Below, one piece after another: positions 13,205 through 64,000 of a stretch of DNA of 64,000 bases. The notes under the pieces are model-generated. The model was not told the DNA's origin and searched no databases. It was given only the letters and a program-made list of their open reading frames with translations. Made by a program: the position numbers and the translations under genes. Source of the stretch: Luteitalea sp. TBR-22. GTDB taxonomy: Bacteria > Acidobacteriota > Vicinamibacteria > Vicinamibacterales > Vicinamibacteraceae. The first letter of the stretch is position 1. Every line of letters begins with the position of its first letter. The stretch is taken from the NCBI RefSeq assembly GCF_016865485.1, contig NZ_AP024452.1, forward strand, positions 4,238,501 through 4,302,500, read 5' to 3'.

Positions 13205-13535
13205 CGATCATAGCACCCGCCTTCGCCCTTCGGGCTTCGGCGGGGCTCCGCCTCGGAACGCTGAACGCCGAACGGGCGGCTTGGGTCCCTCACGCCCGAT
13301 AGGGTGCAGTCTCCCCTTCGGCTTCGCTCAGGGCAAGCGACCGCGCCGTCAGGCGAGCTCACGTACTAACGGCGGGGTGGGACACCCCGCCCTACCTTGG
13401 TGCGTGGCACAGCCCGCCCTACCTTGGTGCGCGGCACAGCCCGCCCTACCTCGGTATCGTGGGACACCCCCACCTACCCGACGTTCGGCGGTTCCCGACT
13501 CCCGACTCCCGACTCCCGATTCCCGACTCCCGTCC
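13205..13535. repeat. Composite repeat junction between two convergent-like operons
   Basis: No gene is seen in this 390-base gap. Three repeat kinds lie side by side: a segment at about 13210-13345 of the CPERSRR-encoding type with GGCTTCGCTCAGGGC; a hairpin of the TAGGGC family at 13368-13396 (arms GGCGGGGTG / CACCCCGCC, loop GGA) with two truncated CCCGCCCTACC copies to about 13460; and a tandem octamer array (unit GACTCCCG) at 13496-13535 that abuts the TlpA stop codon. Confidence 0.85.
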
Positions 13536-19744: not shown

Positions 19745-20236
19745 TTGGCCCCAACAGCTCACTCCCCCGCCGCGTCCCTGACCGAGATGGTCCAGGTCGT
19801 CCTTCCCAACGACGCCAACCCCCTTGGCTACATCCTCGGTGGCACGGTGATGCACCTGATCGACATCGCCGGGGCGATCGCCTGCTTCCGCCATGCGCGG
19901 CAGCGGGTGGTCACGGCCGCCGTCGACGGGCTGCAGTTCCTGCACCCGATCAAGGTCGGCGACCTGATCATCCTGAAGGCCGAGGTCACCGCCACCTTCC
20001 GCACGTCGATGGAAGTGGAGGTGCGGGTGATGAGCGAGAAGACGCTCACCGGCGAGCGGATGCTCACCTCGCACGCGTACCTCACGTTCGTCGCCATCGA
20101 CGCCGACGGGCGCCGTGTCGAGGTGCCCGACCTCGTGCTGGAGACCGACGCCGAGCGCCGGCGCGCCGAACAGGCCCGCGTGCGGCGTGATGCCCGCCTC
20201 GCCGCCAAGACCAGCCTCGCCGCGACCGAGTCGTAG
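19745..20236 (+). CDS. Acyl-CoA thioesterase, hotdog fold (YciA/BACH type)
   Basis: 163 residues of the hotdog-fold acyl-CoA thioesterase family: TEMVQVVLPNDANPLGYILGG starts the fold, followed by VMHLIDIAGAIACFRH (the core helix with the catalytic aspartate) and the strand DGLQFLHPIKVGDLI. Enzymes of this type hydrolyse acyl-CoA to free acid and CoA in the cytoplasm, as a control on acyl-CoA pools. TTG at 19745 leaves room for the usual N-terminal segment before LTEMVQV; the next candidate, ATG 19788, would trim the first strand. The stop TAG lies within a repeat of the GTAGCCGTCG type. Confidence 0.87.
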   Translation: MAPTAHSPAASLTEMVQVVLPNDANPLGYILGGTVMHLIDIAGAIACFRHARQRVVTAAVDGLQFLHPIKVGDLIILKAEVTATFRTSMEVEVRVMSEKTLTGERMLTSHAYLTFVAIDADGRRVEVPDLVLETDAERRRAEQARVRRDARLAAKTSLAATES

Positions 20237-20408
20237 CCGTTGCCCTTCGTCAGCCCCGAGGTCGTCGCCCTCGCATTTTCGCCGAGGTCGTAGCCGTCGC
20301 CCTCTCGCCGAGGTCGTAGCCGTCGCCCTTGGGCGACGGTCAGTGATGACTCACGACCGCCTCACCGTCGTCATTGACGAACGGCGCGGTGGGACACCGC
20401 GCCCTACC
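20234..20408. repeat. Repeat junction with GTAGCCGTCG units and two hairpins
   Basis: Three GTCGTAGCCGTYGCC starts follow each other, the last forming the full hairpin CCGTCGCCC-TT-GGGCGACGG (20320-20339) with the trailer GGTCAGTGATGA. A TAGGGC-family hairpin (arms GGCGCGGTG / CACCGCGCC, loop GGA) lies at 20384-20404. The junction contains the stop codons of both converging genes (thioesterase TAG, VWFA gene TAG). Confidence 0.88.
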
Positions 20409-40200: not shown

Positions 40201-40741
40201 GGACGGTGACCCGGCCGGGCTCGCCGGCGTGTCGCGCGTCGTACTGCGCAAGTGCACCGCGAATCCACGCCAGGGCGACCTCGCGCTGCGCATCGGTCGG
40301 CAGCGGGTCCTCGTCGGCCGGAGGCATCTCGCGCAGCTCGATGCGGTCGGCGATCCTCTGCCACTCCTCCCAGTGCGCGCCGACGTCCTCGACGGTCATC
40401 TTCTCGAGCAGGCCCTCGATGCTGATGCCGCCCTTCGGCTTCGAGGTGCCGTGGCAGTCGACGCAGAACTCGCGGAAGGTGGCCGCTGCGGCGCTCGGAT
40501 CGAGCGTCGCCGCGGCGCGATGGACGGGAGTCGGGAGTCGGGAGTCGGGAGTCGGGACGCGGGAGTCGGGAGTCGGGACGCGGGACGCGGGACTCGGTCG
40601 CGACCCAGGAGTCGCGCTGGCAGCAGCCGACGAGGCAAGCGAGGGCGCGACGGCGTTCCGCGATTGCGCGGAGATCGCCGACACCAACGCCACGACGAGG
40701 AGGCCGCCGACGGCCACCCTGTGCAAGGACCAGCTCACCAC
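37217..40741 (-). CDS. Secreted c-type cytochrome-like protein (DUF1592/DUF1588/DUF1595 architecture)
   Basis: 1174 residues. Signal peptide (residues 8-26), low-complexity linker (residues 47-74, encoded by an octamer array) and a CxxCH haem c motif in [17 protein letters not shown] (Cys93, Cys96, His97; PSD1/PSCyt type). DUF1587/DUF1592/DUF1595 segments follow in the second half ([59 protein letters not shown]), and DUF1588 contains a second CxxCH-like motif in [24 protein letters not shown]1585 ends the chain ([13 protein letters not shown]). It pairs with the DUF1552 gene. These proteins probably transfer electrons for an unknown extracellular oxidation. Confidence 0.93.
40520..40603. repeat. 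Octamer array inside the coding region of the DUF1592 gene
   Basis: Unit GGGAGTCG/GGGACGCG repeated about eight times. It is read in frame and encodes [19 protein letters not shown]-type peptides (residues 47-74) between the signal peptide and the haem domain. The same unit occurs as intergenic DNA at 13496-13535. Confidence 0.9.
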
Positions 40742-52745: not shown

Positions 52746-52792
52746 GCGCCGCTCGGAAAGTGATCCACTCGCCGCTCGGAAAGTAGACCACC
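52746..52792. repeat. IS21 left-end repeats L1 and L2
   Basis: Two direct copies of GCCGCTCGGAAAGT followed by GATCCAC (52748-52768) or AGACCAC (52771-52791), the expected transposase-binding repeats at an IS21 end. Confidence 0.88.
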
Positions 52793-52849
52793 TGAGGGTC
52801 CAGTGAGCGGGCTTGCCGGCGGGCGCGGCGCCGGGGTCCGCTGGAGAGG

Positions 52850-54328
52850 ATGCTCAGGATGGATCAGGTGCATGTGATCCGACACAAGGTGCTGGTCGAG
52901 GGGCGCACGCAGCGGGCGGTCGCGCGGGAGCTGGGGGTCTCGCGCGTGACGGTGAAGAAGTACCTGGCGCAGGCGGCGCCGGTGCGGCACGAGGCGCAGC
53001 CGCGGCCGCGGCCGGTGAGCGAGGCCGTCGGCCCGCGCATCGCCGCGCTGCTGGCGGAGTCGCCGCGGTGGACGACGGCCAAGCAGCGGCTGACCGCGAC
53101 GCGCCTGCACCAGCTGCTTCGCGCCGAGGGGTACGCGGTGGGCGTGACCGTGGTCAAAGAGGCGGTGGCCGAGTGGAAGCGCCAGCAGCGCGAGCCGCTC
53201 GTCCCGCTGACGTACCGGGCGGGCGAGCTAGCCCAAGTCGATTTCTTCGAGGTTGTCGTCGACGTCGCGGGCGTGCGTCGGAAGGCCTGGCTCTTTCTGC
53301 TGCGGCTGATGTACTCCGGCCGGGACTTCGGCTGGATCTACGAGCGGCAGGACCAGATCAGTTTCCTGGACGGGCACGTCCGCGCGTTTGCGCACCTGGG
53401 TGGCGTGCCGGCACGGATCGCCTACGACAATCTCAAGCCGGCGGTGGCCAAGATCCTCGCCGGCCGCGAGCGCGCGCTCACGCTGCGCTTTGCCGCGCTG
53501 GTCTCGCACTACCTGTATGAGCCGAGTTTCTGTCGGCCCGGCGTCGGCCACGACAAGGGCGGCGTCGAAGCGCGGGGCAAGGCGGTGCGCCTGCAGGCGC
53601 TGACGCCCATCCCGTCGGCCGACTCGCTCGACGCGATCAACACGGCGCTGCTGGCGCAGCTCGATGGCCGTGTCGACACGCGGCGCGCCGGCACCACCGA
53701 GACCATCGCCGCACGCTTTGCCGAGGAAGCGCGCCTGCTGTGGCCGCTCGACGTGCCGTTTGTCGCCGAGGCGCCGACGACGGTCAGCATCTCGCCGCGG
53801 GCCCTGGGCAAGGTGCACGGGGCGTGGTACTCGGTGCCGTGCGAGTGGGCCGACCTGGATCTGGTCGCGTGGGTGGGCGCGACGACGGTGACGATCGTGG
53901 GCCGCGAGGGCACGCGGATCACGCATCCGCGCCAGCCCTTTGGCGGCCGCTCGATCGACTACCGCCACTACCTCCGCGCGCTGGCGACCAAGCCCAAGGC
54001 GGTGCGGGAGATCCTGCCCGATCTCCTGCGGGATCTCGGCGCGCCGTTTCCGGCCGTGTGGGATCAGCTCGTCGCCGATCACACGCCCCTCGATGCGGCG
54101 CGGCAGCTGGCCACGATCCTCGGGGTGCTGACGGCCGAGGGCGCGTCGGCCGTGATCCCTCGCCTTGAGGAAGCGCTGCGGACCGGCGCCCCGGTGCGAC
54201 TCCCGCGGCGCGCCACGCGCGCCGTCGCCCTCGACGACGAGGCGCTGCCCGCGACGCTGCGCGACATCGAGGTCGCCAGCGGGATCGCCGCCGATTACGA
54301 CCAGTGGCTCCAGGACGGTGCCGCATGA
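52850..54328 (+). CDS. istA: IS21-family transposase IstA
   Basis: 492 residues: N-terminal helix-turn-helix (GRTQRAVARELGVSRVTVKKYL), an rve integrase core with the DDE residues in ELAQVDFFEVVVD, ARIAYDNLKPAVAK and a glutamate in HDKGGVEARGKAVR, and a C-terminal beta domain. It is the DNA-cleaving transposase. ATG 52850 is used (GGAGAGG nearby); ATG 52859 is an alternative. Its end overlaps istB by ATGA. Confidence 0.95.
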   Translation: MLRMDQVHVIRHKVLVEGRTQRAVARELGVSRVTVKKYLAQAAPVRHEAQPRPRPVSEAVGPRIAALLAESPRWTTAKQRLTATRLHQLLRAEGYAVGVTVVKEAVAEWKRQQREPLVPLTYRAGELAQVDFFEVVVDVAGVRRKAWLFLLRLMYSGRDFGWIYERQDQISFLDGHVRAFAHLGGVPARIAYDNLKPAVAKILAGRERALTLRFAALVSHYLYEPSFCRPGVGHDKGGVEARGKAVRLQALTPIPSADSLDAINTALLAQLDGRVDTRRAGTTETIAARFAEEARLLWPLDVPFVAEAPTTVSISPRALGKVHGAWYSVPCEWADLDLVAWVGATTVTIVGREGTRITHPRQPFGGRSIDYRHYLRALATKPKAVREILPDLLRDLGAPFPAVWDQLVADHTPLDAARQLATILGVLTAEGASAVIPRLEEALRTGAPVRLPRRATRAVALDDEALPATLRDIEVASGIAADYDQWLQDGAA

Positions 54329-55086
54329 GTGCGCCGACGATCACGCGCGATCTCGTCGTGGCGCATACGCGCGCCCTGAAGCTACCCGGGGTCGCGCGGC
54401 ACTTTGAAGCGCTCGCCCGGCAGGCCCAGGAGGCGCACTGGACCTACGAGGACTACCTGCACGAGGTGCTCAGCGCCGAGCAGGTCTCCCGCCATGAGTC
54501 GGTGATCCGCCAGCGGCTCCGCGAGGCGCGCTTCCCCGAGGTGAAGATGCTCGACACCTTTGACTTTGCGTCGGCCGAGGGCCTCAACCCCGCCCAGATC
54601 CAGACCCTGGCCCGCGGCGAGTGGGTGACGCGCCCCGAGAACCTGATCCTCGCCGGCCCGATCGGCACGGGCAAGACGCATCTGGCGATCGCGCTGGGCG
54701 TCGAGGCCACGCGGCAGAAGCGACGCGTGCTGTTTGCCCGTGCCGCCGACCTGGTGCGCCAGCTGCTCGAGGCCCGCGACGCACGCGAGCTCGGGCGCCT
54801 GCAGCGGCGGCTGCTCACGCAGGACGTGCTGATCATCGATGAACTGGGCTTCGTCCCGTCTGATCGGGTCGGCGGTGAACTGCTCTTCAACCTGCTCGCC
54901 GATCGCTACGAGCGTCGGGCGACGGTCGTGACGACCAACCTCGCGTTTGCCGAGTGGGTCACCGTCTTTGGCGGCGACGAGAAGCTGACCACCGCGCTGC
55001 TCGATCGCCTCGCGCACCACGCGACGGTGATCACCACCAAGGGCAAGAGCTATCGCATGAAGAAACGGAGAACCAGCGCCGCGTAG
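54325..55086 (+). CDS. istB: IS21-family helper ATPase IstB
   Basis: 253 residues. AAA+ ATPase of the DnaC/IstB class: Walker A GPIGTGKTHLAIALG, Walker B VLIIDELGFVPSD, and sensor-type residues in VVTTNLAFAEW, with the C-terminal HHATVITTKGKSYR. It helps IstA with target choice and strand transfer. Overlaps istA by 4 bp, the normal translationally coupled arrangement. Intact. Confidence 0.96.
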   Translation: MSAPTITRDLVVAHTRALKLPGVARHFEALARQAQEAHWTYEDYLHEVLSAEQVSRHESVIRQRLREARFPEVKMLDTFDFASAEGLNPAQIQTLARGEWVTRPENLILAGPIGTGKTHLAIALGVEATRQKRRVLFARAADLVRQLLEARDARELGRLQRRLLTQDVLIIDELGFVPSDRVGGELLFNLLADRYERRATVVTTNLAFAEWVTVFGGDEKLTTALLDRLAHHATVITTKGKSYRMKKRRTSAA

Positions 55087-55223
55087 CGCGGCGCACGGCC
55101 TGCAGCCGACCTAGCCCCTCAGAGCGGGGGCCAGGTCGCCCGCAGGCCGTCAGGACCACCCTCGCACCGAGGGCGGGGCAGCGGGCCTACCGGCTCGCTC
55201 CGCGTACAATCGAGGCCCCTCGG

Positions 55224-55271
55224 GTGGATCACTTTCCGAGCGGCCGACTGGTCTACTTTCTGAGCGGCGCC
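55224..55271. repeat. IS21 right-end repeats R1 and R2
   Basis: Inverse copies of the left repeats: GTGGATCACTTTCCGAGCGGC (55224-55244) and CTGGTCTACTTTCTGAGCGGC (55248-55268). One base differs from the left set. Confidence 0.88.
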
Positions 55272-55279
55272 CGCAAGAG

Positions 55280-58200
55280 CTACTGAATCTTGGTGGCAAC
55301 CAGATTGGTACCCGCGGCCAGGGGAGCCCCCGGCGCATCGACGTAGATCGCCTCCTCGACGACGATCTGTGGAATCGGCGCGCCGGCAGTCGCCCCAAGA
55401 GCCTCCACGACAATGCCAAACGACATCCGGTCCGTGATCCCGCCAAAATCCGGTCCGATCGCCGCATTGGTGCGTGATTGTGGAAGCAACGTGTAGGTTC
55501 TCTCCGCTTGCTCTCCGTCGGGGAACATTATCGTGACGCGAGCCAGTCCTGGCGTGGACGAGGTGTTGGCGATCAAGACGTACGTCTGCACGTTCAAGGG
55601 GCCACCGGTCTGCCCGAAGGCCATGCCCCACTTCGTACCCGACTCGGTGGCGCCAGACGAGTTGTGGGCTTCATGCCAGGACGCCCCATCACCCGGCCAC
55701 CACATGGCGCGTTCCACGATGATCGGAACGCCATTGACCGATTCGAGCCGCATGGCAAGGGCGACATCAGCCAGGGGATAGCCCCCCACACCAGGAATCT
55801 GCTCCATATCGACCCATATGCCAGACCTGGACGAGGCTGGCGCCGTAATGCGCTTCGAGAACGTCCGGCCATCGTCAAGGAGGTACGTCACCTGTACGTC
55901 GGCAGCGATGCTGTTCGGATTCGCGATGAGCACGAACTGATCGAAGAACGGCCCGGTTCGCCCTTCCGCGAGGAACCAGCGCGCGGCCGGCGCAGTGACG
56001 CCCATGCTCTCGTGCCCGGCGTTGAACGTTCGTCCCTGGTTGCTGCGGTACATCGCTCGCTCCACGATGAGTGGCGTGCCGTTGATGGACTCGATGACGG
56101 CACTGACCTCGGCGGCGGCAAGTGCACGCCCAAGGCCGGGGAACTCCTCGACGTTGACCCAGATGGTGGTCCGCGACTGAGGAGCGAGCCCGTACTCTTT
56201 CACGAGGGGAACGCCGCTGGTTCGCAGATAGCGAATCCTGGCTGTCACTGCCGTGCTGGAGGGGTTCTGCACCAGATAGAACAACTCGAAGCCACTGTGC
56301 GTGGCGCCTTCCGCAAGGTACCAGGTGGCCGACGGCACGACCGCGGCTTTCTCCGCATGTGCCCCGTACAGGCCGTGGCCTCCACCTCCCCAGGTCATGA
56401 TTCGATCCACGACGAGTGGTTGCGACGCGGTAACCACCGTTGAGAACTCCGCGTTCCACAGACCATACTCGCTCGGCCGGAAGCCGGCAGGGGACTGAGC
56501 GGGCACGAACACGGGGACCGTCAGCGGCGGCTGGCCTGTCTGCTGGAACGTCACATCGGCCACCGTGTCGGTGTCGGTGGGGTTGAGCAGCGCAATGATC
56601 GTATCGAAGAAGGACGACGTGGCGCCCTCGGCCAGGTACCGCGTAAGTACGCCGGATTGTGTCACGCTGACCATCCGGCCCGCTACCGTCACGGTGGCCG
56701 TCCGTGGGAATCCCGCCGTGGTCGGCGCCGCGGTGAGCGTGAGCGTACCGCTCCCTGTTCCACTGGCGGGGCTCACGGTCAGCCACGCCGCGTCGCTGTT
56801 GGCCGTCCACTCGGCGCCCGTAGGCGTGCTGGTGAGCGTGAGCATCTGGCTACCGCCGCTCGCGCGCGCGTTCCAGGCAGATGGCGTGACGCTGAACGTG
56901 GGAGCGCCGGCCTGAGTGACGGCCAGTACATGCCCGGCAATGGTCACGGAAGCCGACCGTGCCGTCCCCGTGCTATTGGCGGTTGCCACGATTGTCACCG
57001 CGCCACTACCCATCCCGCTGGCAGGACTCACAGTCAGCCAGGCGGTGCCGCTGAAGGCCGACCAGGTCGCACTGCTGACAGTGGCAGAGACCGTGACCGT
57101 CTGGCTGCCCCCGGCCCCAGGCGCCGCCCAGCTGCCAGGTGCCAACGTGAACGATGGTGTCTGTACGCTCGGAGTGGCAAACACATAGGCGGCCCCCGAG
57201 AAGGTCGCCTGTGTGTTCGCGGGATCGCCGTTCACTCCCGTGGCGGAACTGTCGTCTCCCTCGACCCCGACCACGATCGTGCCGTCAGCAATGGCCAACG
57301 CCGCGCCGAAAGCGTCTGCACTCCCGACCCAGGTCCTCTCAAAGACGTGACCTCCCTTCAGGTACTCACGCTGTGCCCACGTGCTCCCATTCCGAATGAA
57401 GGTATAGACCGCACCCGACGAGGCGGCGCTATTGTCTGCCTGGTTCCCGTTGACCCCGGTCGCAGCACTGTCTTCGCCATCGGCGCCAACGGCGAGGACG
57501 TCGCCCCAGATGGCGACGGCCACACCGAAGCGATCGGTGACCTCGGAATTGGACGCCTTCAGGTAGGCCTGCTGAGACCATCTGCCGGCCGCGCGTACGA
57601 ACACGTAGGCGGCGCCCGCAAACGAGGCGTTGTTGTCGGCTTGGTTCCCGTTCACGCCGTCGGCGGAACTCCCTTCTTGCGGAGCGCCGACGACAACCGT
57701 GTCTCCCCAATTGGCGACTGCGCCGCCAAATGCATCGCCTGCGCCGGTGTTGGACGCCTTCAGGTATGCCTGCTGCGTCCAGACCGCCCCTTCCCGGACG
57801 AACACGTACGCGGCTCCCGACTCCATCTTCGACAGGTCCTGCGCCCATTGGTCGCCGTTCACGCCGGTCGCGGAACCGGCTTCACTGTAGGCGCCTACGA
57901 CAAGCGTGTCTGCGTGAACGGAGACGGCGTTCCCGAAGTAGGCATGCTCCTGCGCGTTGGATGCCATCAGCTGAGCCTGATGGCTCCATGTCATCCCGCT
58001 CCTTAGGAATACATGGGCGACGCCCCCATTCCACAAACCGTGGCTGCCTCGTCCTCCGGACGCACCGACGACGATCGTTTCTCCAGAGATGGAGACCGCG
58101 GCACCGAAGTTGCTCCAGCTGTTGGTGTAAGACCCCTTCAGGTATGCCTGCTGACGCCAGGTGGTCCCCGTGCGGACGAACACGTAGGCCGCGCCAGCGT

Positions 58201-59326
58201 CTGCGACGCTGTTACTGGTTTGGTCACCATTCACCCTGGTGGCGGCGCTGTCCTCGGCATGGGCGCCGATCACGATGGTGTCGCCGTCGATGGCCACGGC
58301 AGAGCCGAAGGAGTCGCCGGCCTGCGTGTTCGATGCCTTCAGGTAGGCTTGCTGCGTCCACGTCGCACCCGTCCGCACGAACACGTAAGCCGCGCCTGAC
58401 TCCTGCGCGCGATCGTCGAGTTGGGCCCCGTTGACGCCCGTTGCCGCACTGTCGTCGCCGACGGCACCGATAACCACGGTGTCCCCGGAGATGGCCACTG
58501 AACGACCAAAATAGTGGTTGGACTGAGTGCTCGACGCCTTCAGATAGGCCTGCTGGGCGAGCGGGTCCACGGTGATGGGATACAGCGCGTCAGTATCATC
58601 GAGGCGGAGTCGGAGCGCATCGGGCGGCTGCTGCACAAATGTCGCCGGCAGACTCCTACCTCTGGCATCGACAACCGACAGCCCTGCGTAACGCGCTACC
58701 ACATCGCCAGCGGTGTTGATAAAGGCTACGTCCTTGCCGGCTGCTTCGAGCCGAGGCCGGAGGTCGCCCCGCACTTTCAGATCGAACTCGACTGCGCCTA
58801 CTCCGTCAGGCGCTCGGTGCAGGGTGTAGCCGTGCTCCAGTCCTCGCGCGTCGTTCACGTACCACTCGTCCAGCGCACTACCCCAGCGGTAGCTTAGCCG
58901 CTGCCCCTCGGACGTCACTGTGACCGGCGCGTCGACCTCGGCCAGCGAGTGTAACCTGCCCCACGCGCGTAGTTCGAGCCCCCAGGACCACGTCCGATCC
59001 TCAGGTTGGACTGTGAATCCGCGACCGTCGAAGTGCGTGGTCCAGTGCTGGGCACGGTTGCGTGCCAGATAGGCGCCACGCTTCGCCGGCACGACCGCAT
59101 CGCCTGCCCTTTCGTGAGCCTCGAGCAGCGCTGACCAGTCGTCCGAGGACAGCCCTGCCACCCGGACCGCCGACGGAACTGTGACTGTCGCCCCCCTCGC
59201 GGCCCGGGTGGGCGCGGCACGGAGGCTCGGCAGCCCGGACGGGATGGGCTTCAACCCATGCCAACCGCCCTGTGTGATCGCCAAACCGAGGGCGCACGTG
59301 ACCACCGCGTAGAAGCTTCTGCTCAT
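55280..59326 (-). CDS. Giant secreted FG-GAP / BACON / LAEG-module surface protein
   Basis: 1348 residues. Signal peptide (SFYAVVTCALGLAITQG), an N-terminal beta domain (residues about 90-260), seven FG-GAP-like blades (about 262-730; each with QQAYLKAS, a DSFGSAVAI-type start, VVIGA and a GAAYVF end), two BACON domains (about 740-930; SGTAWLTVSPASGMGSG and SDAAWLTVSPASGTGSG) and four LAEG modules to the end (residues about 935-1348; RYLAEGATSSFFDTI, WYLAEGATHSGFELF, WFLAEGRTGPFFDQF, WGMAFGQTGGPLNVQ) of the DUF5719-like kind. An exported adhesin or glycan-binding protein is likely. The TAG stop lies 8 bp from the right end of the IS21 element. Confidence 0.88.
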   Translation of the reverse strand: MSRSFYAVVTCALGLAITQGGWHGLKPIPSGLPSLRAAPTRAARGATVTVPSAVRVAGLSSDDWSALLEAHERAGDAVVPAKRGAYLARNRAQHWTTHFDGRGFTVQPEDRTWSWGLELRAWGRLHSLAEVDAPVTVTSEGQRLSYRWGSALDEWYVNDARGLEHGYTLHRAPDGVGAVEFDLKVRGDLRPRLEAAGKDVAFINTAGDVVARYAGLSVVDARGRSLPATFVQQPPDALRLRLDDTDALYPITVDPLAQQAYLKASSTQSNHYFGRSVAISGDTVVIGAVGDDSAATGVNGAQLDDRAQESGAAYVFVRTGATWTQQAYLKASNTQAGDSFGSAVAIDGDTIVIGAHAEDSAATRVNGDQTSNSVADAGAAYVFVRTGTTWRQQAYLKGSYTNSWSNFGAAVSISGETIVVGASGGRGSHGLWNGGVAHVFLRSGMTWSHQAQLMASNAQEHAYFGNAVSVHADTLVVGAYSEAGSATGVNGDQWAQDLSKMESGAAYVFVREGAVWTQQAYLKASNTGAGDAFGGAVANWGDTVVVGAPQEGSSADGVNGNQADNNASFAGAAYVFVRAAGRWSQQAYLKASNSEVTDRFGVAVAIWGDVLAVGADGEDSAATGVNGNQADNSAASSGAVYTFIRNGSTWAQREYLKGGHVFERTWVGSADAFGAALAIADGTIVVGVEGDDSSATGVNGDPANTQATFSGAAYVFATPSVQTPSFTLAPGSWAAPGAGGSQTVTVSATVSSATWSAFSGTAWLTVSPASGMGSGAVTIVATANSTGTARSASVTIAGHVLAVTQAGAPTFSVTPSAWNARASGGSQMLTLTSTPTGAEWTANSDAAWLTVSPASGTGSGTLTLTAAPTTAGFPRTATVTVAGRMVSVTQSGVLTRYLAEGATSSFFDTIIALLNPTDTDTVADVTFQQTGQPPLTVPVFVPAQSPAGFRPSEYGLWNAEFSTVVTASQPLVVDRIMTWGGGGHGLYGAHAEKAAVVPSATWYLAEGATHSGFELFYLVQNPSSTAVTARIRYLRTSGVPLVKEYGLAPQSRTTIWVNVEEFPGLGRALAAAEVSAVIESINGTPLIVERAMYRSNQGRTFNAGHESMGVTAPAARWFLAEGRTGPFFDQFVLIANPNSIAADVQVTYLLDDGRTFSKRITAPASSRSGIWVDMEQIPGVGGYPLADVALAMRLESVNGVPIIVERAMWWPGDGASWHEAHNSSGATESGTKWGMAFGQTGGPLNVQTYVLIANTSSTPGLARVTIMFPDGEQAERTYTLLPQSRTNAAIGPDFGGITDRMSFGIVVEALGATAGAPIPQIVVEEAIYVDAPGAPLAAGTNLVATKIQ

Positions 59327-59609: not shown

Positions 59610-62600
59610 TCATGGCGTCTTGAAGTACAACGGTGTCGTATAGCCAGAACATCCCGCGGCGTTGCACGCGGCGACGTTCCACTTGTACGTTCGACCTCGC
59701 GTGAGCGAGGCAGTGTACGAGGTGCCGGTGACGTACGTATCCACCACGAGCGTGTTCGTTGTCATATCTCTGATGCCGATGCCGTGACTGGTCGCCCCAC
59801 TGGAACTCCCCCAGCTGACCGTCACCACGTTACTTCCCATCGTCGGGCCTGGGCTCGTGGTCCATCCTGGACTTGGGCTCGTGGGGGTTGTCGGTGCCAT
59901 GAGAACGCTCGGGGTGGTGAAGTACAGTCCCGTCGTGTACAACGAACACCCGGCCGCATTGCACGCCGAGACGTTCCATCGGTATGTGCGGCCGGCCGTC
60001 AGCAAGGCGGTGTGCGAGGTTCCGGTCACGTAGGTGTCGACCACGAGCGCGTTGGTGGTCATATCGCGGATGCCGAGACCGTAGGAGGTCGCGCCGCTGG
60101 AGACGCCCCACCCCACCGTAACGTTGCTGCTTCCCATGGTGGGCCCGGGGCTGCTCGTCGATCCTGGGCTCGGGCCGCTCGGGACCGATGGCGCGGCCAG
60201 CGCGGTCGGGGTCGTGAAGTACAGCGCGGTCGTGTACAACGAACACCCGGCACTGTTGCAAGCTGCGGCGTTCCAGCGATACGTGCGCCCCGACGAGAGG
60301 CTCGAGGTGTACGAGGTGCCCGTCACGTACGTGTCCACCACCAGCGCGCCCGTCGACACATCCAGAATCGCCACGCCGTAGTTGGTCGCACCGCTCGACG
60401 CGCCCCAACCGATCGTCACCGTGCTGCTTCCCGTCGTGGGCCCAGGACTGCTGATCGACCCGGGACTCGGGCTCGTGGGCGTCGCCGGCTTGGTCGGCGT
60501 ACTCCCACTCGTCGGCGTCGTGAAGTAGAGGACGGCGGTGTAGCTCGAACACCCGGCACTGTTGCAGGCCGCCACGTTCCACCGGTATGTGCGCCCCGAC
60601 GAGAGGCTCGCCGTGTAGGAGGTGCCCGTCACGTACGTGTCCACCACCAGCGCGCCCGTCGACACATCCAGGATCGCCAGGCCGTAGTTGGCCGCGCCGC
60701 TCGAGGCGCCCCACCCCACGGTGACTGAATTGCTCCCCGCTGTTGGGCCAGGACTGCTGGTGGACCCGGGACTCGGGCCCGTGGGCGTCGCGGGCTTGGT
60801 CGGCGTACTCCCACTCGTCGGCGTCGTGAAGTAGAGGACGGCGGTGTAGCTCGAACAGCCGGCACTGTTGCAGGCCGCCACGTTCCACCGATATGTGCGC
60901 CCCGACGAGAGGCTTGCGGTGTAGGAGGTGCCCGTCACGTACGTGTCCACCACCAGCGCGCCCGTCGACACATCCAGAATCGCCAGGCCGTAGTTGGCCG
61001 CGCCGCTCGAGGCGCCCCACCCCACGGTGACCGAACTGCTCCCCGTTGTTGGCCCAGGACTGCTGGTGGACCCGGGGCTCGGGCCCGGGGGCGTCGCGGG
61101 CTTGGTCGGCGTGCTCCCACTCGTCGGCGTCGTGAAGTAAAGGACCGCGGTGTATCTCGAACAGCCGGCACTGTTGCAGGCCGCGACGTTCCACCGGTAC
61201 GTGCGCCCCGCGCCGAGGTTGGCGGCATAGGCGGTTCCGGTCACGTGCGCGTCAACGACAAGGACATCCGTTCCCGAATCACGGACCACGACGTTGTAGC
61301 TGGTGGCCCCTGACGAAGCAGCCCAGGCTGCCGAGAAGACGTTGCTCGCCAGAGTCGGCCCCGGGTTGGCTGTCGCGCCAGGACTGGCACCACCAGGGGT
61401 CGCTGGCGTGGTCGTCTCGGCTGGAGTCGTGACGTACAACATGGGCGTCGGCGCGGAGCATCCCGCCGCGTTGCAGGCCGCTACATTCCACCGATAGAGG
61501 CGCCCGGTGCTCAGCGGCATCGTATAGGCGGCTCCGATCACTGACGTGTCGACCACGGTCGCTCCGGACGTCATGTCGACGAGCGCGAGCTGGTAGGTCG
61601 AGGCTCCAGTGGACGCGCCCCAGGTCATCGTCACGGCGCGGGTGCCAAGTAGGATCCCCGGAGCTGCCGTGGTACCCGGCGTCGCCCCGGCCGGCGTGGC
61701 AGGAACGGCGGCAGTGGTCCGCGTGGTGAAGTACACGGGAGCGGCGTAGGGAGAGCATCCCGCCGAGTTGCACGCGTTCGCGTTCCAGCGGTACTGTCCC
61801 CCCGCTCCGAGGTTGATCAGGTACCCAGGATCGCTGACTGTCGTGCTGACCACGAGCTGATCAGTGGTGAAATCGCGGACCGCCACGCCGTACCAGGTGG
61901 CGTCCGACGTCGCCTCCCAGGCCAGCCGTACCAGGGTGGTGTCGGTCGTGGGTCCCGGCGTCGATAAAGCTCCCGGGGTCAACCCTACAGGTGTCGAAGG
62001 GGCCGCTACATCGGTCGTCAGGAACTTCCGATCATCGCCAGTCGCTCGACCTGCGCTGTTGACTGCAACCACGCGGAAATGATGCTCAGTACCGGCAGGC
62101 AGTCCCGTGAGGCGCGTCGATACGGCCACAGCACTGTGCCCCGACCCGATGAGCACCGGGGGGGTCGCCTTCCCGTACGCGTTCGTCGCGCCCCACTCGA
62201 AGTGTACGTTGGTGGGCAGGCCGTTCGGCGTGACCATGGCAGCCAGGGCGGCATCGGACTTCGTGACGGAGTTCGGGCTTGCCGTAATGGCGACCGGCAC
62301 ATTGCTGACGTCCCCCTGGACGTTCAGGGTGAAGGACGAGGTGCGCACGGTGGCTCCAGCACGACCAACGACGGTGATCGTGAATGAGCCCTTGGGTGTC
62401 GCCTCGTTCGTCGACACCTGCAACACCCTCGCCCCTGTTCGAGCGCCGGCCGCGAATCGCGAGGTGGGCTTGAAGCGAGTCCCCGGTAAGCTCTGCCCAC
62501 CGGGTATTCCCTCGACACTCAGTGCCACTTCCGAACTCATGCCGGCCGCGGACTCGAGCAGGACCGACAGTTCCGCCGTCGCGCCTGGCCTCACTGTCAC

Positions 62601-64000
62601 TGACGACGGCGACGCAGTGAGGCTGAAGTCGCCCGTGACGCTCGCATTCGCCGAAGCGGTGCGGCCGACTTCGATGGCTCTCCACCCGTGCTTGGCCCAC
62701 CATGACCTGGCGTCTGTCTTGTGGTGCCATGCTCTCAAGAATGTCTCGAGCTCGAATGCTCGGCTCTTCGCATGCTGGATGTTGGCAACAGTCCTGCCGC
62801 CATCGTGCACGATGATGGTGCCCTTGGGATGTGTAGGCGTGGGCGCCGTGATGCCAATCACCAGCATGTAGTGCCCAAGATCCGTCTCTCCTGATTCTGG
62901 AAAGTCTATTTCATTCAATCTCGTCGAGTCGGCAGGCCAAGTCACTTGTGGGTAGAGCAGAACGATCAACGGGTGCCCTTGCTCGAGCGCGCGCACTATT
63001 TCCTCGGCGTTGACGGAACGATCCCAGCTCGGCACTCCACGCACTTGCATTTGACTGACCAGTTGGTCAGGATCCACTGCCCCGCCACATTCCCACGCCT
63101 TGCCGGTTCCGAGCACGATCGATTTGACGAGGTCGTTCGACACGCTGCCCAGCTTCTTGTAGTGGGCAATCGCCATGGCAGCAGTGTTGTGTCCGCATGT
63201 CCCGTTGATGTTCCTCAGTGCCCCAGTGCTGCCGCAGGTATCGTTCTGCATCCCGAACTGCGACCGCCATGGAACGTCCGTGAGGATGACGTCCTTCGAA
63301 GCCACGCCAAACGACGCAAGGGCTTCGGGAAAACTGGCCGTCGCAGCCTGGACGACGCTTGCGCCACCGTCCTCATCGTCGCCATCGAGCGATATCGACC
63401 CGTCCACTTGCGGCGAGTCACCAAGAACACCGGCCATCACCTCATCTCTGAGGACGGTGCCTAGCGCGTTGGTCCCTGCCGCCCACTTCTGGCCGGCAGC
63501 GTCCCAATACATGGCACGTTCGACGACGATGTTCGCTGGCGACGGCCCTGTTGATTCGATGAGCGCACCGAACCGCCGGCCGTCAGCGTCGGGGAACACG
63601 ACGCCCACGGGCACATTGAAGCGGCTGCGAGCGGCGACGCCGGTGAACTCCTGGACCGATACGCGCCCGTCATCGAACAGCAGTGAGACCCTGAGCGTCG
63701 CAGGCGTGTCGGAGACGTTGGCGATGAGGTAGTACGTCTCCACCGTTCGTGCCTTGTCGACCTCACCCTCGGCGACGGCCCAGCGGGTCCCCGCCGCCGT
63801 TGCACCTGCAGAGTTATGAGCCTCGTACCACCCGCCCTCGGGCCACCACATGGTTCTCTCGGCTACGAGCGGAACCCCGTTTGTGGAACGTATGGTCGTC
63901 GACACCGATGTGGAGGCGAGCTTCGAGTCCTCGAGATCGACCCAGATGTTGAAGCGGCTGTTTGGCGCGATGGTGTACTGCTTGGGAATCACCTCGCCGG
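59610..64000 (-). CDS. Giant secreted protein: LAEG modules, C39-like peptidase, eight fn3-type repeats (5' end missing)
   Basis: At least 1463 residues; the reading frame is open to the window edge so the N-terminus lies beyond. From the left edge of the protein: two LAEG-type modules (NIWVDLEDSKLAST, then WAVAEGEVDKARTVETYYLI), a papain-like peptidase domain of the C39-like type (residues about 235-430, Cys in TCGHNTAAMAIAHYKK and His in DLGHYMLVIGI), a beta domain (FSLTASPSSVTVRPGATAELS), one odd fibronectin-type repeat, and eight similar fn3-like repeats of about 100 residues, each ending near NVAACNSAGCS. Those repeats are tandem in DNA. Related to the next protein by its LAEG modules. 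Extracellular. Confidence 0.87.
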   Translation of the reverse strand, partial: GEVIPKQYTIAPNSRFNIWVDLEDSKLASTSVSTTIRSTNGVPLVAERTMWWPEGGWYEAHNSAGATAAGTRWAVAEGEVDKARTVETYYLIANVSDTPATLRVSLLFDDGRVSVQEFTGVAARSRFNVPVGVVFPDADGRRFGALIESTGPSPANIVVERAMYWDAAGQKWAAGTNALGTVLRDEVMAGVLGDSPQVDGSISLDGDDEDGGASVVQAATASFPEALASFGVASKDVILTDVPWRSQFGMQNDTCGSTGALRNINGTCGHNTAAMAIAHYKKLGSVSNDLVKSIVLGTGKAWECGGAVDPDQLVSQMQVRGVPSWDRSVNAEEIVRALEQGHPLIVLLYPQVTWPADSTRLNEIDFPESGETDLGHYMLVIGITAPTPTHPKGTIIVHDGGRTVANIQHAKSRAFELETFLRAWHHKTDARSWWAKHGWRAIEVGRTASANASVTGDFSLTASPSSVTVRPGATAELSVLLESAAGMSSEVALSVEGIPGGQSLPGTRFKPTSRFAAGARTGARVLQVSTNEATPKGSFTITVVGRAGATVRTSSFTLNVQGDVSNVPVAITASPNSVTKSDAALAAMVTPNGLPTNVHFEWGATNAYGKATPPVLIGSGHSAVAVSTRLTGLPAGTEHHFRVVAVNSAGRATGDDRKFLTTDVAAPSTPVGLTPGALSTPGPTTDTTLVRLAWEATSDATWYGVAVRDFTTDQLVVSTTVSDPGYLINLGAGGQYRWNANACNSAGCSPYAAPVYFTTRTTAAVPATPAGATPGTTAAPGILLGTRAVTMTWGASTGASTYQLALVDMTSGATVVDTSVIGAAYTMPLSTGRLYRWNVAACNAAGCSAPTPMLYVTTPAETTTPATPGGASPGATANPGPTLASNVFSAAWAASSGATSYNVVVRDSGTDVLVVDAHVTGTAYAANLGAGRTYRWNVAACNSAGCSRYTAVLYFTTPTSGSTPTKPATPPGPSPGSTSSPGPTTGSSSVTVGWGASSGAANYGLAILDVSTGALVVDTYVTGTSYTASLSSGRTYRWNVAACNSAGCSSYTAVLYFTTPTSGSTPTKPATPTGPSPGSTSSPGPTAGSNSVTVGWGASSGAANYGLAILDVSTGALVVDTYVTGTSYTASLSSGRTYRWNVAACNSAGCSSYTAVLYFTTPTSGSTPTKPATPTSPSPGSISSPGPTTGSSTVTIGWGASSGATNYGVAILDVSTGALVVDTYVTGTSYTSSLSSGRTYRWNAAACNSAGCSLYTTALYFTTPTALAAPSVPSGPSPGSTSSPGPTMGSSNVTVGWGVSSGATSYGLGIRDMTTNALVVDTYVTGTSHTALLTAGRTYRWNVSACNAAGCSLYTTGLYFTTPSVLMAPTTPTSPSPGWTTSPGPTMGSNVVTVSWGSSSGATSHGIGIRDMTTNTLVVDTYVTGTSYTASLTRGRTYKWNVAACNAAGCSGYTTPLYFKTP
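59630..61240. repeat. Tandem coding repeats of about 300 bp within the fn3 protein
   Basis: At least six units. The units beginning at 60481, 60787 and 61093 are spaced by exactly 306 bp (102 codons) and are almost identical in DNA; the leftward units are more diverged. Recent amplification in the middle and older units at the edges. Confidence 0.9.

Follow-up and report, generated by a model that had tools for sequence, protein, structure and literature searches.

A gene of Luteitalea sp. TBR-22, an acidobacterium isolated from duckweed (PMC8852301), ends in an array of fibronectin type III (FN3) domains whose DNA repeats with a period of 306 bp. The locus raises the question of how this array arose, how old its similar copies are and what a protein built in this way might do. 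The genome consists of one contig of 6,468,984 bases, of which we analysed a stretch of 64,000 nucleotides, positions 4238501–4302500 (the window). With flanking DNA added, the open frame of the FN3-array gene was found to reach extended position 65090. We prefer the ATG at extended position 65027 as its start because a Shine–Dalgarno-like GGAGGGA precedes it; this is the likelier start as judged from the sequence, and would give a protein of ∼1,805 aa. An export signal was recognised by eye around residues 70–85 of the longer frame, and the protein is probably exported or secreted. From N to C terminus, the signal is followed by an ASRAH/DUF5719-like block of four repeats, then a C39-like domain, a probable Ig-like domain, an FN3-like domain and eight FN3 units, as listed here.

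G000:C1:4298110-4303527, minus strand: full FN3-array gene, predicted ∼1,805 aa, start beyond the window
59610..64000, minus strand: in-window part of the FN3-array gene, the whole gene running to the ATG at extended-window 65027
63456..63998, minus strand: in-window end of the ASRAH/DUF5719-like block (four repeats), the rest running to extended 64763
62634..63287, minus strand: C39-like peptidase domain (Peptidase_C39_2)
62313..62633, minus strand: probable Ig-like domain, by eye, without Pfam match
62010..62312, minus strand: FN3-like domain without Cys pair, by eye
61713..62009, minus strand: FN3 unit U1
61416..61712, minus strand: FN3 unit U2
61110..61415, minus strand: FN3 unit U3, last part within the 306-bp repeat
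60804..61109, minus strand: FN3 unit U4, 96.4 % DNA identity to U5
60498..60803, minus strand: FN3 unit U5
60201..60497, minus strand: FN3 unit U6, 84.0 and 83.0 % DNA identity to U4 and U5
59904..60200, minus strand: FN3 unit U7
59613..59903, minus strand: FN3 unit U8, protein C terminus

Two different IS21-family elements, at 52746–55270 and extended 65398–67903 (L005), bracket the two-gene pair. Both contain IstA and IstB and have terminal inverted repeats, and one of them ends ∼10 bp from the stop codon of the neighbouring gene at 55280–59326. For the right neighbour, a homologue search returned partial and weak matches only.

The FN3 units and their cysteine pair

The eight units occupy the C terminus of the protein, with the last ending at its final residue, and from U1 to U8 their motifs are spaced by 99, 99, 102, 102, 102, 99 and 99 aa. 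The Pfam fn3 profile (PF00041) matched the array at 63.6 bits, well above its curated cut-off of 25, and ChitinaseA_N (PF08329) was the other top match. A sequence-only reading of this DNA had proposed that an ACNSAGC motif in every repeat adds a Cys pair to each module. The pair, spaced C-x4-C, is indeed present in all eight units and accounts for each of the 16 cysteines of the array; the exact string is found in five units, the other three having ACNAAGC.

An AlphaFold2 model of U4–U5, built on an alignment of 13 rows, had a mean pLDDT of 93.0; its pTM was 0.53, and the angle between the domains, hence the stiffness of the pair, is not fixed by the model. The modelled domains have the FN3 beta-sandwich fold, and the best Foldseek and VIA-align matches were FN3 proteins, headed by mouse CNTN6 FN1–FN3 (Z 13.7 over 179 residues, rmsd 3.5); as modelled, U4–U5 is a standard FN3 pair. 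Since the model places residues 72–81 in a strand and residues 84–85 in a short bridge, Cys80 and Cys85 should lie opposite one another on the two sides of a tight hairpin. Structure modelling had been suggested earlier as a check for disulfides, and this geometry fits a hairpin disulfide, which the Cys pair would form. The identical ACNSAGC string stands at the same place in a profile alignment with an FN3 domain of contactin-1 (PDB 2ee2), although contactin-1 is an animal neural cell-adhesion protein, unlike the bacterial array. The accessible part of PMC5562865 does not settle the question of disulfides in contactin FN3 domains, and the papers found on the FN3 FG loop together with a disulfide concern mainly engineered binders.

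Duplication and growth of the array

TRF identified a coding tandem repeat on the minus strand with a period of 306 and a score of 1634, which, together with the fn3 match, bears out the 306-bp coding repeat first read from the letters. It had also been claimed that units starting at 60481, 60787 and 61093 match over long runs. The first two are 96.1 % identical, but the copy from 61093 is only 71.6 % identical to both, and three near-identical units at these positions were therefore rejected; of the long runs, the longest exact match measures 65 bp for an offset of 306 and 61 bp for one of 612. With the cuts placed at the ACN motif instead, three 306-bp copies span 60264–61181:

60876..61181, minus strand: duplication copy A, hairpin to hairpin
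60570..60875, minus strand: duplication copy B, 95.4 % identical to A
60264..60569, minus strand: duplication copy C, 89.2 % identical to A and 89.2 % to B

Pairs of copies cut in this way show 14 (A/B), 33 and 33 differences, and in the best register, which begins near 60286–60293, every pair is at least 90.2 % identical. The offset-306 match runs over 60240–60904 at 92.3 %, and thus the stretch involved is 60240–61210. Identity at the same offset, taken at 598 control positions in the rest of the window, had a median of 31.7 % and peaked at 41.2 %, which excludes a chance origin of the repeat. When units were cut at domain borders, U3, U7 and U8 shared 59.5–71.6 % DNA identity among themselves and with the core, and U1 and U2 were 53–59 % identical to all other units. 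The outer units have accordingly diverged, as had been claimed (53–72 % mutually and to the core), with the exception of the last part of U3.

The age of the copies was gauged from dS and dN over codons 1–96 of every unit. U4 and U5 differ by eight silent and three replacement changes (dS/dN 0.109/0.014), U4–U6 and U5–U6 gave 0.405/0.073 and 0.450/0.078, respectively, and dS was at least 0.93 for the remaining pairs among U3–U8. In the close pairs dN falls well short of dS, a sign of purifying selection on the unit sequence. Furthermore, a protein tree of the units separated U2–U8 from all 10 foreign units (UFBoot 95) and placed U1 on the side of the foreign units, with most other nodes weak. 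The series of dS values, 0.11, then 0.41–0.45, then ≥ 0.93, points to stepwise growth with no fresh homogenisation. Of the recent amplification proposed earlier, the copies in register in the core and the separate standing of U2–U8 remain, but a very recent event was rejected, as even the closest pair has a dS of 0.109. Judged by these sequence comparisons, the array grew through stepwise tandem duplication, an ordinary growth route for such proteins, and some time has passed since its last duplication.

At both ends, the similar stretch stops within ∼60 bp of ACN codons, which belong to U3 and U6, and on this basis we infer that the crossover probably took place in the conserved hairpin. A crossover there would yield whole domains with the frame kept at each duplication, and suggests that the recombination site in a bacterial FN3 array is its most conserved hairpin rather than the domain linkers.

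Relatives and the other domains

The FN3 array was not found in the four congeners and two other family members searched. Across 60 relatives (E ≤ 0.001) three genomes were matched, TBR-22 itself included, and the two non-self matches were weak (29–34 % identity); among 297 genomes of the phylum the FN3 profile matched seven, again including its own, the other six having one or two units apiece. The unit profile is thus rare in its home phylum. The U4–U5 pair had no plasmid or phage match, and the array as a single query had no PDB sequence match. Similar units were found, in one scan of genome contigs, at eight loci in genomes of other groups, with record titles naming Gemmatimonadetes, Porphyrobacter, Caulobacteraceae, Undibacterium, Halochromatium, Verrucomicrobiota, Myxococcales and Proteobacteria. 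The proteins at these loci have one to three full units each, some with partial units as well. In an alignment (A1) that left out the unit of L037, the partial units and the first unit of L033, Y, W, ACN and GCS never vary and all 18 chosen units have the Cys pair; in the unit of L037, S replaces the second cysteine. Enzyme domains were found by Pfam in three of seven scanned relative ORFs (an M23 peptidase in L033 and L036, an alpha/beta hydrolase in L032) and in none of the other four, and in L035, L036 and L038 the FN3 unit is located away from the C terminus. The TBR-22 array belongs among the known bacterial extracellular FN3 arrays (PF00041), which it resembles in fold, motif positions and, in some relatives, an accessory place beside hydrolases; it differs from the usual ones in that each unit contains a Cys pair and a 306-bp segment has been duplicated locally.

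Two of these loci show a repeat or a possible trace of one. In the Myxococcales protein (L038:8541-8935), the same FN3 unit precedes a repeat spaced by 285 bp, whose copies show no difference over the 60-base stretches that were compared. The Caulobacteraceae MAG (L034) has N runs inside its FN3 region, at 319–574 and 774–997, the second bordered on both sides by one short sequence, as may be expected of a collapsed near-identical repeat, with masking as the alternative.

The C39-like domain matched Peptidase_C39_2 (PF13529) at 24.5 bits against a cut-off of 24 only when scanned alone, and a scan of the complete in-window protein did not list it. Candidate catalytic C, H and D residues were read by eye; L036 also carries a below-cut-off C39_2 match, and two alignments with it left the presumed catalytic cysteines unmatched. 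Searches with this domain found one match in 60 relatives, its own genome, and two in 297 genomes, of which the non-self one was weak and had four stops; there was no plasmid match, nor a PDB sequence match for the domain as a single query.

The N-terminal block is a part separate from the 306-bp repeat and belongs to a set of paralogous proteins. A model of one repeat, taken from the neighbouring gene and built on six alignment rows, two of them from the FN3-array protein, had a pLDDT of 83.4 and formed an ASRT-like beta-sandwich, matching TM1070 (1nc7; Z 12.7 over 104 residues, rmsd 2.8) and ASRT (Z 10.8), with the next unrelated structure at 6.6. On the strength of this model the four-repeat block is a member of the ASRAH superfamily. 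A sugar-binding role is predicted for ASRAH domains, according to the part of PMC2739507 available to us, which was the only paper on topic among the matches listed; no literature was found on DUF5719. At least 22 proteins of the TBR-22 genome contain the block, 21 of them at the extreme C terminus. In 20 paralogous frames, picked from pattern and block matches rather than by a full census, it ends 0–10 residues from the C terminus, the FN3-array protein being the exception in sharing the fold and tetrad arrangement at its N terminus; DUF5719 matched 14 of the 20 at E-values up to 5, the best being 4.5e-13. Block matches were present in 16 of 60 searched genomes, many with at least ∼20, and loci L041–L058 are among those carrying the four-repeat block. 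The block may be a general attachment tail. The neighbouring gene has its own copy:

55280-59326: neighbouring gene, with a block at 55283-56644 at its C-terminal end

Its protein has FG-GAP_2 repeats and BACON domains ahead of the ASRAH block. In genome G002, 8.7 kb separate the left neighbour's homologue from a gene with a C-terminal tetrad, which is suggestive only.

Possible function and competing explanations

The best account we can offer, with about as much speaking for it as against it, is that the protein is a C39-like hydrolase, probably exported, in which one block would hold glycans and the FN3 tail, braced by disulfides, was lengthened by unequal crossing-over. An exchange of this kind between adjacent units, within the conserved YRWNVAACNxAGC hairpin, would enlarge the core, and the putative C39-like head would act as an extracellular hydrolase, with a predicted hold on glycan through the N-terminal ASRAH-type block. 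Braced by disulfides and linked by prolines, the FN3 array would form a stiff accessory tail, resistant to proteases, which determines reach and contributes further substrate-binding contacts; more copies would make it longer and more avid, and copy number would drift slowly without a dedicated switching device. A broader proposal, which we regard as a long shot, is that the ASRAH tetrad is a general glycan-attachment module in the at least 22 proteins, normally C-terminal and here the N-terminal anchor of an enzyme whose FN3 stalk grows and shrinks by hairpin recombination. Hairpin recombination and the larger, little-studied ASRAH-tetrad set indicated in Luteitalea do not, either of them alone, alter current understanding.

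The array could also have grown neutrally, its unit number having no functional effect; we consider this somewhat unlikely, although the failure to find the array in the six congeners and family members speaks against a conserved need. The low dN in close pairs counts against it in that the unit sequence is kept, but does not extend to a role for unit number. Unlikely, too, is that gene conversion among old units, and not duplication, made the core alike. The longest identical-codon run in U6 exceeds that of shuffled sequences (p 0.0018 and 0.0034; 0.0055 and 0.044 when restricted to same-residue codons), so that U6 may contain a converted patch; these p values, however, are uncorrected, and the core has the 102-aa period and its linker across three joints, all others being 99 aa, as duplication predicts. 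Of the gene conversion suggested by the sequence-only reading, such a patch may stand, but an array whose minimum dS is 0.109 has not been freshly homogenised.

Tandem repeats are frequently misassembled, which counts for an assembly artefact, yet we hold this to be extremely improbable as every copy differs, the frame is intact and the mean MinION read exceeds the 2.4-kb array. The TBR-22 assembly combined Illumina and MinION data, with a mean MinION read of 11,446 bp (PMC8852301). A Periscope-type stalk, in which near-identical domains recombine often and length differs within a strain, altering the reach of the head, appears decidedly unlikely. As described in the part of PMC8201768 available to us, the screen for Periscope Proteins takes tandem repeats of > 50 residues with ≥ 80 % protein identity; with this threshold applied without T-REKS, three TBR-22 units pass (99, 86 and 85 of 102 residues), and exact tracts of up to 65 bp persist. 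The likeness thus lies in highly similar, folded tandem domains. The sequence-only reading expected the protein to vary in length between cells; the comparison here covered a single genome of the species, and such variation would be a prediction of the Periscope reading. Periscope stalks also project an N-terminal functional domain from a surface anchor. Against it, only three of eight units pass and the others are mostly diverged, the closest pair was not recently homogenised by its dS, and the array sits at a free C terminus with no anchor recognised beyond it. Further short tandem repeats lie elsewhere in the window, at 13377–13478, 20226–20329 and 40525–40597.
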